Shown here one piece after another: positions 17,144 to 27,106 of a DNA stretch of 27,106 bases. The position numbers and the translations under genes are program-made. Origin of the DNA: Candidatus Undinarchaeales archaeon SRR5007147.bin71 (GTDB lineage: Archaea; Undinarchaeota; Undinarchaeia; Undinarchaeales; Undinarchaeaceae); NCBI GenBank assembly GCA_014189675.1, contig DVAE01000026.1:1-27106 (forward strand). Direction: 5' to 3'. The notes under the pieces were generated by a model, which was given only the letters and a program-made list of their open reading frames with translations, did not search any database and was not told the DNA's origin. How positions within the stretch are numbered: the stretch's first letter is position 1; each line of letters begins with the position of its first letter.

Positions 17144-17890
17144 ATGGCATTTAAATTTATATTGGACGAACCGGACCTTTTAAAGGACTGTGTTATAGCC
17201 TCATCCAGCCTTCTTAACGAAGCAGTGCTTACTGTGGACAGTAATGGAGTCAGCCTTGTAAGTATGGACTCGGCAAATGTTGCCCTTGTAGAATTCAATA
17301 TTCTTGCAGGAGCATTCAGAGAACTGGAAGCCTCCGAAAAAACTGAATTTGGAGTTAATATGGCAGATCTTGTATCTGTAATGAGACGAGTAAAATCCAC
17401 GGAAACTCTTGAGATGTCTATGGACGATGGTATGCTATCATTAAAGATATCTGGAAATGCAAAAAGAGCTTTTCAGATACCATTGATAGACGTAAAGAAA
17501 GAGACTAAAATACCTCAATTGGAATTCCCTGCCAGCATTGAAATAAAGGCAGAGTTCCTTGAAGATGGTATAAGTGATGCAGAGATAATCTCAGACGCAG
17601 TTATTTTTGAGGCTGACCCAGACTCATTTAAAATACGCTCCAGAGGAGATAACAGAACTGCCGAGCTCCAGATGCAAAAGGGGGAAGATGGAATTGTGAG
17701 TTTGGAGGCAAAAGACCACGTTAAATCAACCTTCTCTCTGGACTATTTGAAGAAGATGATAAAAGCCTCAAAAATATCTGACGTGGCGAGTGTAAGAATT
17801 GGAAATGATTACCCACTAAGAATGACATTCACAGTCCTGGACAAGGCACATATAGGATTTGTTCTTGCTCCGAGAATAGAGAATGACTGA
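17144..17890 (+). CDS. pcn: DNA polymerase sliding clamp (PCNA)
   Basis: PCNA is the trimeric ring that tethers DNA polymerase, ligase, FEN1 and other partners to DNA. The 248-residue protein has the normal length and two-domain layout: LVSMDSANVALVEFNI (38-53) is the classical LmamDsshValv motif of domain one; the interdomain loop is near residue 118-128; and the C-terminal PLRMTFTVLDKAHIGFVLAPRIE stretch carries the family ending with partner-binding residues. A U7 tract follows the stop. It lies 45 bases after the small exported protein gene with no strong TATA box of its own. Primase and GINS genes are 2-4 kb downstream, giving a loose replication cluster. Confidence 0.96.
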   Translation: MAFKFILDEPDLLKDCVIASSSLLNEAVLTVDSNGVSLVSMDSANVALVEFNILAGAFRELEASEKTEFGVNMADLVSVMRRVKSTETLEMSMDDGMLSLKISGNAKRAFQIPLIDVKKETKIPQLEFPASIEIKAEFLEDGISDAEIISDAVIFEADPDSFKIRSRGDNRTAELQMQKGEDGIVSLEAKDHVKSTFSLDYLKKMIKASKISDVASVRIGNDYPLRMTFTVLDKAHIGFVLAPRIEND

Positions 17891-17959: not shown

Positions 17960-18805
17960 ATGAGTAACAAGAAAGATTTTAGTTTCTATTACAGCATAGC
18001 GCTTTTATCACTGCTTGCCATAATTGTTTTTATGCAGCCTCAGACAGGAGAAGAAATACCTGACTTCGACGAAGTTACAACAATAAATGGAGTGAGTGTT
18101 GAAGAAGACCTTGTTATCCAGGAGGAAATGGTTGAAGAAATTGTCAAGTTTGAAGGGACTCTGGAAGAGACTGGATGTAATGTTGATACTGACTGGCCGG
18201 AGCATTGCCCTATAAAGAAGGGAAGTAGGGAATTTAGAACCTGCTGGATTGAGTCAACAAGTGGAAGTCCTGACCTTTTCGCAACTGTAGGATGTGGGGC
18301 AATGACCATTCACGCAGAATTCAAGCAAATGGCATCTATAGCAACCTCAAGAGAGGCCAGACTTGTAATTCTACCCAGTCCGAACGTGACAGCTAGATAT
18401 CTTTTATCTCTAGATATGAGAATAAATGGTCTTCCAATGACAGAAAATCAAGAGCAAGGTCTAGTAATCAATATAGAGGAAGTCCAAAATCACAGAAAAG
18501 TTGTAATAAGTGTTTCAGATGGGAAAATATGCGTACGAGAATCCGCTGAGGAGTGCATAGAAAGCCCTGAAGTTGTCGAAGCAACTCAACCTGGAAGAAT
18601 GAAATGGGACATCGTAGGGGAAAATGATGACTTGAGAATTTATGTTGACGACTCCATGATTGCAGAGTTCACTGAGCTTAGTCTTCTATCATACCAGCAG
18701 ACTGGAAATCTTGTATCACTGTACGCACGGCTTAATCCTGATGATGTGAGCGGAAATGTCCTGGATGTTGAAATTAGAAAGGCTGAGTTTTACAACATAG
18801 TATAA
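17960..18805 (+). CDS. Membrane-anchored extracytoplasmic protein, beta-rich with six cysteines
   Basis: A basic N-terminus and one hydrophobic segment (about 9-26) anchor the protein; the remaining 250 residues should lie outside. Six cysteines in that part (C73, C83, C95, C112, C191, C199) could form disulfides. From about 115 to the end the strand pattern, including KWDIVGENDDLRIYVDD and a final LDVEIRKAEFYNIV, resembles laminin-G/concanavalin-like jelly rolls that bind sugars. I cannot assign a named family, so the fold is inference. The gene stands alone with its own TATA box, after the pcn terminator and before fbp. Confidence 0.65.
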   Translation: MSNKKDFSFYYSIALLSLLAIIVFMQPQTGEEIPDFDEVTTINGVSVEEDLVIQEEMVEEIVKFEGTLEETGCNVDTDWPEHCPIKKGSREFRTCWIESTSGSPDLFATVGCGAMTIHAEFKQMASIATSREARLVILPSPNVTARYLLSLDMRINGLPMTENQEQGLVINIEEVQNHRKVVISVSDGKICVRESAEECIESPEVVEATQPGRMKWDIVGENDDLRIYVDDSMIAEFTELSLLSYQQTGNLVSLYARLNPDDVSGNVLDVEIRKAEFYNIV

Positions 18806-23642: not shown

Positions 23643-23812
23643 TGGCAAAAATTCTCCGGTGTACGAAATGCAGACAGTATACTATAAAAACTATATGTCC
23701 TAATTGCAACACAAGTACGGCCAGTCCTGAGCCTGCAAAATATGATCCCAAGGACAAGTACGGAAAATATAGGAGACAAGCACGAACAGATGGAAACCTT
23801 CGTAAAGTATAG
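23642..23812 (+). CDS. nop10: H/ACA ribonucleoprotein protein Nop10
   Basis: This 56-residue zinc-ribbon protein helps guide pseudouridylation of rRNA as part of the box H/ACA complex with Cbf5, Gar1 and L7Ae. Four cysteines form the ribbon (C7, C10, C19, C22: RCTKC and CPNC), followed by the conserved PAKYDPKDKYGKYRRQ helix region (31-46) that binds Cbf5. The start overlaps the aIF2-alpha stop (TAATG). It lies in the conserved archaeal order aIF2-alpha, nop10, PAC2 gene. Its end overlaps the next start by 23 bases. Confidence 0.93.
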   Translation: MAKILRCTKCRQYTIKTICPNCNTSTASPEPAKYDPKDKYGKYRRQARTDGNLRKV

Positions 23813-24584
23813 AAAAAAGCCTAAATTAAACAATCCAGTTCTTATAGAAGGACTTCCAGGATTCGGACAGGTCGGAAGGCTTGTTTCAGAGCATCTTGTA
23901 AAAGAATTTAAGGGGGAAAAATTTGCAGAGCTTTACAGTCCTCACTTTCCACCGCAGGTCATGATCAAGAATGACGGGCTTATAGATATGATTTCAAATA
24001 ACTTTTTCGCTATAAAGAGACCGAAGAAGAGAGATATTCTTGTTGTTATAGGAGAGTCACAGGCGGCGACTATAACTGGGCAGTATGAAATCTGCGAGAA
24101 AATACTTGATGTTGCCAAGGAATTTGGAGTAGAGGATGTCATAACAGTTGGTGGATATGCAATGGGAAGACTTATGAAGAGACCGAAGGTCTACGGAGCC
24201 GCCAATGATAAGAAAGTAATAAAGGAATTTTCGAAGCACGGAGCAATATTCAAAACTAAAGGAGAGAGAGGAGGAATAGTAGGCGCATCAGGTCTGCTTC
24301 TGGGACTTGGACAGCTCAGAGGAATGAACGCAGTATGTCTGATGGGAGAAACACCAGGGCATCCGCTTTTAATAGACGCAAAGGCGGCTGAAGAGGTTCT
24401 CAATATTATAGGGGCTTATCTCGGAGAAGACATTCCAATGGGCGAGCTGGATAAGAGGGCAAAGGAGCTTGAGAAGTTCAGGCTCGGGCTTGAAAAAATG
24501 ATGAAGAAGGCCATCCAGCAGGTCGAGAAGCAGGAAGAGAGTGAGCAGAAGAAAACTGAAGAGAAAGTCAAGTATATCGGTTAA
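23790..24584 (+). CDS. PAC2-family protein (PbaB-like; proteasome-assembly-chaperone homologue)
   Basis: The PAC2 fold is shown by the N-terminal LIEGLPGFGQVGRLVSEHLV (18-37), then HFPPQVMI, the strand RDILVVIGESQA, VGGYAMGR (around 118-125) and GASGLLLGLGQLRGM with LMGETPGHP near residue 168-198. Archaeal PbaA/PbaB proteins are homologues of proteasome assembly chaperones. The C-terminal 40 residues are charged and helical; the ending VKYIG is not the exact HbYX motif that docks on the proteasome. I start at ATG 23790, within the end of nop10, because the family begins near METF. The stop lies four bases from the stop of the convergent lipoprotein gene. Confidence 0.88.
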   Translation: METFVKYRKKPKLNNPVLIEGLPGFGQVGRLVSEHLVKEFKGEKFAELYSPHFPPQVMIKNDGLIDMISNNFFAIKRPKKRDILVVIGESQAATITGQYEICEKILDVAKEFGVEDVITVGGYAMGRLMKRPKVYGAANDKKVIKEFSKHGAIFKTKGERGGIVGASGLLLGLGQLRGMNAVCLMGETPGHPLLIDAKAAEEVLNIIGAYLGEDIPMGELDKRAKELEKFRLGLEKMMKKAIQQVEKQEESEQKKTEEKVKYIG

Positions 24585-24588
24585 TTAT

Positions 24589-25548
24589 CTACTCAGTAAG
24601 CTGAGCCCTGCAATTTGTTATTTCATCTGAAGAACCATATATTCCGAACTTGCCTTTGAGTTGTTCTGTAACGCGGTAGCCGTAATTGGATACGACGCTG
24701 ATTGTACAGAAGTCCTTGACGAAATTCATGTTCCCAGTATAATTTAGTGAAAGTGTTTTTATGAGGTCCTGTTTGCCGAAGCGGAGCTGTAGCTCAGCGT
24801 CAGCATATGTAAGTTCCTTATTATTTCCTTCAGTAAAATTGCAGGGACCTGACAAAGTTAGAGTAGTCTCATTCATATAGCCGGAGCCTTTGTATCCGGC
24901 GAGGCCGTCCCCTGTGTTTTGAATTTTCAGGCGGATGCTGAAGCTCCTTGCATTTTCAGAAATGATTAGGGGCTGATTTCTTAGAGACTCTATCTCTATC
25001 TGAACTGGACCTGCGCTCGGGAAATTCTCTCCGGTTCCGCCCGTCTGGCCGCCGAGGCGCTCTGCTTCCTGTTGGGACATTAGGAGAATTGATGCCCAGC
25101 CCTCTGATTTGTACATGTAACTGACAGATGCAGCAACTATGCTTTCACGTGGATCGCAGCCTGCCTGCATATCCCACTGGACTGAGTATGCGTCTCCTTC
25201 ACTGCAGATTGAGAGATCAGGAGGATAAAGAGTAGGAACTGTTTTGAACTGTTGAGTGGCGTCATCACCGAGACCAAATCCAGGATGGCTCCACAGGTCT
25301 GCCGTGATATCCGTCGCCTCATAGTTTCCGCCGTTCTGGAGGTCCATGGAAAGGCGTACAGAACCACCGACAGGAACATCCTCGTAGCCAGGGGAGAAAC
25401 TCAGTATTTTTATTGCATCTGTCTGCGAAACAACGACTGGGCATTCCTTTGCCTTGCCTTTGCATCCGCTGACGGAAACTGCAAGGAGAATAACAAGTAC
25501 AACTAGGGTGAATTTTCCGAAGCCTGTTTTTTGTTTTATTTTAGTCAT
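24589..25548 (-). CDS. Surface lipoprotein with paired beta-sandwich (CARDB-like) domains
   Basis: The N-terminus has a basic start, a hydrophobic helix (about 14-28) and a lipobox-like end V-S-G-C, so the Cys is probably lipid-modified. The mature part has two beta-rich regions linked by a middle segment. The first (about 45-150) has IKILSFSPGYEDVPVGGSVRL and LQNGGNYEATDI, which resembles bacterial-type Ig/CARDB domains. The second (about 190-319) has SFSIRLKIQNTGDG. It is clearly paralogous to the next gene, with matching order. Its start codon lies one base after the upstream stop, so the genes form one operon. No enzyme motif is seen; a binding or structural surface role is inference. Confidence 0.75.
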   Translation of the reverse strand: MTKIKQKTGFGKFTLVVLVILLAVSVSGCKGKAKECPVVVSQTDAIKILSFSPGYEDVPVGGSVRLSMDLQNGGNYEATDITADLWSHPGFGLGDDATQQFKTVPTLYPPDLSICSEGDAYSVQWDMQAGCDPRESIVAASVSYMYKSEGWASILLMSQQEAERLGGQTGGTGENFPSAGPVQIEIESLRNQPLIISENARSFSIRLKIQNTGDGLAGYKGSGYMNETTLTLSGPCNFTEGNNKELTYADAELQLRFGKQDLIKTLSLNYTGNMNFVKDFCTISVVSNYGYRVTEQLKGKFGIYGSSDEITNCRAQLTE

Positions 25549-25549
25549 T

Positions 25550-26527
25550 TTATCTTGAAGGTGCGTAGCTTACTCTTGCATTGGCGTCAATCATATATGT
25601 GTATTCCACTGAAGCCTCGAAGGCTGTGGCATCTTGTATTAGTGTGTCGATTACACCACTCTTTACAGTAAATACAACATCGTAACTTCTCCACTGATTT
25701 GTGCTTCCGATGATTTTTAGTTTATCAGAATCATTAACAAGAAGAGTATCTGCACCATCCATTGAATCAAAATCATAGCTGGGGTCAAGAGAACTGTCAG
25801 AAAGACGAAGAGGCTCGAGAACATCAGGATCGAATTTCAACCTGATTTCCCTGAAAGAGTTGTCTTCAAGAGAACCCCCACCACTATTCTTAACATTCAC
25901 CGCAACAGAAACCGTTTGCGTAGTATCAGGCTGGAGAATTATAGGAGTTTTTGGAGCGACTATTTCAAGGCTTATTGGCGCAGGTGAACTGTAAGAATTA
26001 AGAACATAGCCACTTATCTGACCACCTTTCTGGAGCCAGTTGTCGTAAGAGGAGAGAAGGGCTTCCTGCGTTCCTGTGGTACTGTAATCGTACATTACTC
26101 GGAGGCCGAAATCCTGACCCGTTGTAGCCTTTGGAAGGCTTGTTGGAGCCAGTAGGATAAGCTCTTTCTCGACTATATCTCCGGGGATTCCCTTGTCGCG
26201 ATTAGGTCTCTCCAATCGGTCTATTCCATTCGGAACAAATTTACTGTTGCAAGTAAAATCAGAATTGTCTAATGGAGAAGCAGCTCCGCAGTTGAAAAGT
26301 ATGAATTTTAGATTCGTCGCATCAAAGTTCCCATTGTTCTGTGCCGCTGAATAGAAGGTTATCGGATCGCCGGGATTAACTGTTGAAACAATAGGATAGA
26401 AGGAAGTTATTGAAACTCCAGGATAGGAAACCTCTGTAGGAGTTTCTTTATCGTCCACCCCAAGCTGAGTTCCTGTGCACCCCGATACAAGGACTACGAG
26501 TGCTATTAGGAGAATTGCGTTTTTCAT
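25550..26527 (-). CDS. Surface lipoprotein, paralogue of the downstream gene
   Basis: Residues 1-17 form a signal helix ending in LVSGC, a lipobox, so the protein is probably a lipoprotein. The first beta-rich domain has VSITSFYPIVSTVNPGDPIT and AQNNGNFDATNLKF, matching the paralogue's order. The middle has VMYDYSTTGTQEALLSS. The second domain (about 185-325) begins VAVNVKNSGGGSLEDN and contains SDKLKIIGSTNQWRSYDVVF, which matches NSSKLQLIGLANQWNSYKAIF in the third gene. The start overlaps the stop of that third gene (ATGA at 26524-26527). No catalytic motif was seen. The family is not named; CARDB-like is my best description. Confidence 0.75.
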   Translation of the reverse strand: MKNAILLIALVVLVSGCTGTQLGVDDKETPTEVSYPGVSITSFYPIVSTVNPGDPITFYSAAQNNGNFDATNLKFILFNCGAASPLDNSDFTCNSKFVPNGIDRLERPNRDKGIPGDIVEKELILLAPTSLPKATTGQDFGLRVMYDYSTTGTQEALLSSYDNWLQKGGQISGYVLNSYSSPAPISLEIVAPKTPIILQPDTTQTVSVAVNVKNSGGGSLEDNSFREIRLKFDPDVLEPLRLSDSSLDPSYDFDSMDGADTLLVNDSDKLKIIGSTNQWRSYDVVFTVKSGVIDTLIQDATAFEASVEYTYMIDANARVSYAPSR

Positions 26528-27106
26528 TCCTCAATTACGACAGTAGCCTGCCCCTCCTCTATGTATGTATAGTCGGCTTCAGCGCTGAAGCTTATAACTT
26601 CTTGGATGATTGCTTCGACAGATTGTGAAGGATTGTATATGTTAGTGTTTGGGTCATTATCTGAAGCCTCTACTGAGTCAAGTATTCCATCACCGTCGTC
26701 GTCGTCATCTTCATTATCAGGAATTCCATCATTATCATAATCATATGGGGATGAATCCAAGGTATCAGGAGTTCCGTCACTGTCATCGTCAAGATCTAAA
26801 TCATCAGGAGTTCCGTCACCATCATTATCATTTTCAGACTGATTAGTTAATTGTGCCTGTTGTTCCAACTCGGAGGGTGCTTCAGTTGTAGTTTTTATCT
26901 TAAAAATTGCCTTATAGGAATTCCACTGATTGGCTAAACCTATGAGCTGAAGCTTACTTGAATTACTGACAGTAAGAATATTATCGCTTGCTTGTTCAAA
27001 GTCTCCAGAATCCAGAGCAAGCAATGAAGTATCATAATAGAGTCTGACTTCCCCCAACTCACCGCCATTCACTATACCATTTCCTGAGTTTCTTATAATA
27101 ACCGCA
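26524..27106 (-). CDS. Exported protein paralogue with inserted calcium-binding-type (TSP3-like) repeats, 5'-truncated
   Basis: The frame stays open to the window edge, so the N-terminus is missing; the visible part begins AVIIRNSGNGIVNGG, which matches VNVKNSGGGSLED of the downstream paralogue. The visible residues correspond to the second beta domain of that paralogue, with the SKLQLIGLANQWNSYKAIFKIK core and the final AEADYTYIEEGQ (paralogue: ASVEYTYMIDAN). Between these the gene carries an Asp-rich module (26647-26832) with DNDGDGTPD, DSDGTPD, DNDGIPD and DDDGDGILD units, the thrombospondin type 3 calcium-binding pattern. The paralogue lacks it. The stop overlaps the next gene's start. 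It is probably a surface protein. Confidence 0.75.
   Translation of the reverse strand, partial: AVIIRNSGNGIVNGGELGEVRLYYDTSLLALDSGDFEQASDNILTVSNSSKLQLIGLANQWNSYKAIFKIKTTTEAPSELEQQAQLTNQSENDNDGDGTPDDLDLDDDSDGTPDTLDSSPYDYDNDGIPDNEDDDDDGDGILDSVEASDNDPNTNIYNPSQSVEAIIQEVISFSAEADYTYIEEGQATVVIEE
26647..26832 (-). repeat. Thrombospondin-type-3-like aspartate-rich repeat module
   Basis: About 62 residues contain four D-x-D-G-x-x-D type units. At the DNA level the plus-strand 17-mer atcaggagttccgtcac occurs at 26764-26780 and 26803-26819, so part of the module arose by local duplication. This pattern in known proteins binds calcium. Confidence 0.75.

Follow-up and report, generated by a model that had tools for sequence, protein, structure and literature searches.

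The last genes of the window, which is the complete 27,106-nucleotide contig C11 of a marine metagenome-assembled genome (623,718 bp in 39 contigs, 83% complete), are part of a seven-gene operon. In our judgment the odds lean modestly towards this operon encoding an envelope complex that is heteromeric, lipid-anchored and conserved among archaea with small genomes (mostly of DPANN type), and whose recognition tips are exchangeable. Three of its genes, g1 to g3, lie on the minus strand at the right end of the window, beside a PAC2-family gene (Table 1).

Table 1. Coordinates of the array genes and neighboring features in the window
Feature	Position	Strand	Remarks
PAC2-family gene	23742..24584	+	Convergent flank of the array, also in UBA55 and ARS1358
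g1, array position 7	24589..25548	-	319-aa lipoprotein, two beta-sandwich domains (predicted), lipobox VSVSGC
g2, array position 6	25550..26527	-	325-aa lipoprotein, two beta-sandwich domains (predicted)
Sequence identical to right end of contig C10	26520..26609	-	90 bp; would join C10 and C11
g3, 3' part of array position 5	26524..27105	-	Domain 2 only; 5' part lost at contig edge
Insert in domain 2 of g3	26647..26835	-	Asp/Asn-rich, thrombospondin-3-like, presumed from sequence to bind Ca2+; likewise in position 5 of ARS1358 and UBA55
Contig edge	27100..27106	.	Point where the position-5 versions cease to align; start of domain 2

The three genes are paralogous (BLASTP, E = 1e-10 between g1 and g2 and 3e-10 between g2 and g3), and their significant mutual similarity across the two-domain unit places them in one family; in phmmer searches, g1 and g2 matched the lipoproteins of the sister contig (7e-8 to 6e-61). 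Much of this had been proposed in a first-pass annotation, which correctly took the genome for a DPANN archaeon (it belongs to the Undinarchaeota), described tight gene junctions (an ATGA overlap between g3 and g2, and one base between g2 and g1) and recognized lipoboxes in the two genes with visible N-termini (predicted as ...VLVSGC in g2 and ...VSVSGC in g1). The NQWxSY core string that it gave as a shared feature is common to g2 and g3, the more recent duplicates, and is missing from g1, and the Asp-rich insert of g3 had escaped it. Elsewhere in the window, a 281-aa protein with a single N-terminal TM segment (17960-18805, plus strand) adjoins PCNA (17144-17890) and is possibly a LamG/concanavalin-type surface protein as reported for Undinarchaeales (PMC7414124).

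The array runs past the window edge, as had been surmised. Contig C10 of the same assembly (locus L004) adds four lipoprotein genes and the gene of a multi-TM protein to it, in the order pelota (minus strand), multi-TM protein of 842 aa, lipoproteins of 451, 311, 302 and 542 aa, and the sequence shared with C11. The 90-bp overlap comprises the 3' end of the other version of position 5 and the start of position 6, and C10 matches the window end over 96 bp at 98%. From the overlap and from synteny we infer that the two contigs join, giving an array in which pelota is followed by the membrane protein, six lipoproteins and PAC2. A search of related genomes recovered the same array with the same flanks: archaeon UBA55 (G002, GCA_002495465.1) has, on a single contig, pelota, proteins of 844, 451, ~296, 303 and 395 aa, positions 6 and 7, and PAC2, and ARS1358 (G001, GCA_002687935.1) has this order and these flanks with position 1 split across two contigs. 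Profile searches, the source of all our counts across the window's own genome, placed every array copy at this one locus.

Several neighboring or related genes may be mentioned here. Upstream of the array, C10 encodes two adjacent multi-TM proteins of 398+ and 391 aa (L004 2-1195 and 1237-2409, minus strand) with long coiled-coil-like cytosolic tails and no confident family. Both sister genomes have a lone lipoprotein-like gene of ~175 aa beside CTP synthase (L054 5502-6032, L055 5531-6052), which the array profile matches weakly (E about 1e-6). An extracellular unit of the lipoprotein kind is also present in the position-1 protein (profile E 2e-9); this multi-TM protein has variable C-terminal extensions (L047 1-2490, L045 3351-6188), and those of G004 look internally repeated (GAQNxxxHNDxLDKxWCC).

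Each lipoprotein is closer to its same-position counterpart in other Undinarchaeota than to its array mates. In a maximum-likelihood tree, bootstrap values were 98-100 for the groups of positions 2, 3, 5/6 and 7 and 80 for position 4, and the one-to-one orthologous groups reach back to a Naiadarchaeales-like genome (G003). Because positions 5 and 6 have a single common counterpart in G003 and in G004, they most likely duplicated later than the other positions, judging from the sequences. Identity to ARS1358 was 93% for position 2, 86% for position 3, 93% for position 4 and 94% for position 7 (g1, which is 43% identical to G003_p6). At position 5 it was 91% in domain 1 and 38% in domain 2, and at position 6 the values were 96% and 76%. 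Housekeeping neighbors showed 78-96%, and the array proteins were similar (86-96%) except in domain 2 of positions 5 and 6. The serial duplication first suggested for these genes implies a lineage-specific expansion and was not borne out in that form: the subunits separated long ago, have one-to-one orthologs and are about as conserved as housekeeping genes. An adhesin array that expanded recently in one lineage and serves host attachment alone would suit the DPANN lifestyle and the adhesin-like tip domains, but the ancient orthologs and their wide distribution already contradict recent expansion, and we consider such an array very unlikely.

AlphaFold2 predicted the same order of elements in g2 (mean pLDDT 79.7, pTM 0.75) and g1 (mean pLDDT 72.5, pTM 0.67), in agreement with the two-domain beta-sandwich architecture read earlier from the sequence, although the two models were built on the same alignment rows (11 sequences) and are not independent. 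In both, domain 1 is followed by a ~25-residue strand, domain 2 and a second ~25-residue strand at the C-terminus. The best structural matches were to one Ig-like domain, with ~100 residues aligned but spread over model residues 36-325 (Z up to 11), and this spread suggests that in the models domain 1 is completed by the last strand on its way back, which would leave domain 2 as an outward tip. The matches included the transglutaminase C-terminal domain, integrin, complement MG domains and RbmA, and were generically Ig-like. PDB profile searches with lipoprotein, position-1 and SLT-tip queries returned nothing significant, and the CARDB and DUF11 (COG1361-type) Ig-like domains, which are also beta-sandwiches, gave weak profile matches, all below the Pfam cut-offs (best 16.4 bits vs 22.7). 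Given their paralogy, joint encoding, lipid anchors and conserved bases, the subunits most likely assemble into a single heteromeric surface complex.

The assembly contains two versions of position 5. One is the ordinary version, g3, an ortholog of position 5 in ARS1358 and UBA55 (88-90% identity); the other is the 542-aa protein of C10 (c542). Compared with UBA55, the c542 gene is 91.5% identical over its first 647 bp and 96% over its last 96 bp, and its middle ~0.9 kb has been replaced and is unalignable, which makes the gene a mosaic with sharp edges. The replacement takes in the predicted tip but leaves both the base and the strand that returns to it untouched. Within the replaced part lies a diverged domain-2 core of the position-5 type (42% identity, E = 4e-18), so c542 is not a random chimera. 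Although the genome is a MAG and the join falls at contig ends, we think it most improbable that chimeric assembly produced the C10 tip and that the thrombospondin-type tip alone is real: the frame is open over 542 codons, the domain-2 core flanks the insert on both sides, and the GC content of the tip matches that of its flanks. The simplest reading of these sequences is that the two versions are strain alleles, which would exist because the tip was replaced by recombination with the tip of a diverged relative. Alternatively, they might be tandem paralogs in one genome with seven lipoproteins, gene conversion having kept their 5' and 3' parts alike. The junction sequence would permit a further gene copy, and tandem duplication also gave rise to positions 5 and 6, but each of the two sister genomes has one copy, C10 extends without a break from position 4 across the shared 5' part, which occurs only once in the assembly, and C11 starts exactly at the point of divergence; we judge tandem paralogs rather unlikely. 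A diversity-generating retroelement target was considered and rejected, as the genome (83% complete) has no RVT_1 reverse transcriptase. No relatives were found among viral contigs.

The insert in c542 is a DUF1554/endostatin-like domain (29.0 bits, above the Pfam cut-off of 27.5) that also matched endostatin chains in the PDB (E = 0.004). DUF1554 occurs in 6 of 394 archaeal genomes, none of them another member of the Undinarchaeota. It was also seen in a 2,533-aa open frame (L154, G378:C2:423505-423879) of a small archaeal genome that has a lipoprotein array as well. In Leptospira, endostatin-like (DUF1554) Len proteins are outer-surface lipoproteins that bind laminin, fibronectin and complement regulators (PMC2063517). 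The C10 tip resembles them in placing such a domain on a surface lipoprotein, but here the domain is inserted in the Ig-like tip of an archaeal array protein, and its score lies far below the Len cut-offs (23 bits vs 300-400). The insert of g3 matched neither PF02412 nor PF18884 above the Pfam cut-off. Variability extends beyond positions 5 and 6, since position 7 of UBA55 has an insert absent from two relatives; this protein contains a true TSP_3 (31.5 vs a cut-off of 25). Position 6 of ARS1358 has an E/Q-rich linker.

The statement that the unit lacks an enzyme holds in this genome and fails in G003, where the position-4 ortholog (L045 8560-10038) has at its end a lytic-transglycosylase domain of the SLT family (PF01464, E 2.5e-7) with a visible ES...GLMQ motif. 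This would place a peptidoglycan-type enzyme, as judged from its sequence, on an archaeal surface lipoprotein. Position 7 of the same genome (L045 11058-12230) has a Cys-rich C-terminal tail (CTDACRQDGFDYGRC...), whereas Undinarchaeales have no such tail. For attachment or recognition, the function first suggested for the array, the endostatin/DUF1554 and thrombospondin-3 tip domains and the exchanged position-5 tip provide indirect support, and contact with a host is a plausible candidate role. The most likely contacts of variable tips of the binding type are molecules outside the cell or partner cells.

A profile built from 31 array proteins was compared with 394 archaeal genomes and found matches in 117, of which 82 were strong (E<1e-12). 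Genomes of 1.5 Mb or less made up 81/82 of those with strong matches vs 15/35 of those with weak ones. Two complete genomes of ~1 Mb look like Nanohaloarchaeota by their size and the character of their proteins; for most surveyed genomes the phylum label was deduced from genome size. The module is not confined to the smallest genomes, as G266 (2.1 Mb) carries it, and because of this one array the module may also have a general envelope role. Arrays contain one to six lipoproteins, and a lipobox-like motif, predictive of lipidation, is present in 137/148 array proteins. Among 40 loci longer than 15 kb, 26 include an adjoining anchored protein of ~380 aa (prot0), 23 pelota, 19 a DUF63-like membrane protein and 16 a PHP gene; prot0 itself gave only sub-threshold CBM-like/Shr-like matches. 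In six Nanohaloarchaeota-like loci (L048, L053, L105, L106, L107 and L108), genes for secreted proteins of ~580 aa and ~900-1650 aa lie beside the array. In seven others, from several families (L090, L120, L096, L099, L093, L110 and L119; the 700-aa class), one array lipoprotein has a Cys-rich C-terminal extension of ~350-400 aa, often with two thrombospondin-3-like repeats. Pfam gave no name to most of the long C-terminal extensions seen in array proteins from other genomes.

We then compared the array with known systems. The nearest prior notice is a table line of Makarova et al. 2019 (PMC6393860), compared here by its description, in which DPANN cls.004306 (NEQ255), next to arCOG02487 and present in 43/67 DPANN genomes, is listed as a 'predicted component of secretion system and S-layer-like proteins'. 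The likeness lies in DPANN-wide secreted proteins beside Ig-like proteins of S-layer type; that single line is without the array, the orthologous subunits, the tip inserts or the tip replacement. The main text of the Undinarchaeota paper (PMC7414124) names LamG and Ig proteins and not the array, and we found no pelota-linked surface module of DPANN in the literature. The nanohaloarchaeal SPEARE/giant Ig-repeat proteins (PMC6642349, PMC10266531), which have a proposed role in host contact, are also DPANN surface proteins made of Ig-like domains. They are very long single chains, mostly of 3,000-9,400 aa, whose ATPase domain is cytosolic, in contrast to the separate ~300-aa lipoproteins of the array, whose sizes and domains do not agree with a giant protein of thousands of residues with TM segments and a VirB4/TraG ATPase.

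The putative secretion complex associated with arCOG01314 (Makarova et al. 2015, PMC5898192), of which a MoxR ATPase and PF07760 (DUF1616) proteins form part, is similar in that one neighborhood encodes several proteins, membrane-bound or secreted, whose extracellular domains are Ig-like. A MoxR-family AAA+ ATPase gave no match above cut-off in the window's own genome or G001-G005, and G017, G022 and G043 have one elsewhere. The PF07760 Ig-membrane subunit was found neither in G000-G004 nor in other sampled array genomes: in a sample of 61 genomes it was absent from 14/14 with an array and present in 20 others, and the two never co-occurred (Fisher p 0.002, relatedness ignored). We have not filed the array under this complex because the MoxR match is lacking and PF07760 is absent, although it could work in a like manner. 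The array may be a DPANN counterpart of the predicted arCOG01314/arCOG02884/arCOG02487 complex, a general secretion or envelope-biogenesis complex in which Ig-like subunits scaffold an export or S-layer-anchoring machine and the tip inserts are incidental. Most subunits are as slow-evolving as housekeeping genes, which fits a structural or secretion role as well as a recognition complex, the module is widespread, pelota-linked and present in one 2.1-Mb genome, and cls.004306 sits beside arCOG02487 among predicted secretion and S-layer-like proteins. However, no MoxR-type AAA_3 match exceeded the cut-off in Undinarchaeota, neither an ATPase nor a channel was found in the array, and the replaced tip of position 5 would be left unexplained. 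We regard a secretion complex as possible but doubtful.

In the envelope complex with exchangeable tips that we favor, the multi-TM protein of position 1 and as many as six lipoproteins (positions 2-7) would each contribute a two-domain, Ig-like beta-sandwich unit, and an N-terminal lipid would hold each lipoprotein at the membrane. The chain would exit through domain 1 on a long strand, form domain 2 far out and return on a second long strand, such that domain 2 is a tip tolerating inserts and replacement and the base stays fixed. At positions 5 and 6, and in some cases at 4 and 7, the tips would carry or gain binding or enzyme modules (thrombospondin-3-like repeats, the endostatin/DUF1554 domain and, in G003, the SLT domain), and the tip would contact outside molecules or partner cells and set specificity.

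The array bears on the question of how DPANN archaea, Undinarchaeota among them, recognize their partners and hold on to them. It offers a compact, conserved candidate for a surface complex, encoded together and present in dozens of archaea with small genomes. More tentatively, and with less confidence than we place in the secretion complex, we suggest that it is an undescribed heteromeric surface complex in which inter-strain recombination of tips acts as a cassette-like switch of specificity for partner cells, with an SLT tip in some lineages. If this is true, a tip bearing a cell-wall enzyme of the SLT type would point to bacterial partners or prey. The tips of positions 5 and 6 are where specificity would most likely be encoded, and the question is thus directly testable.
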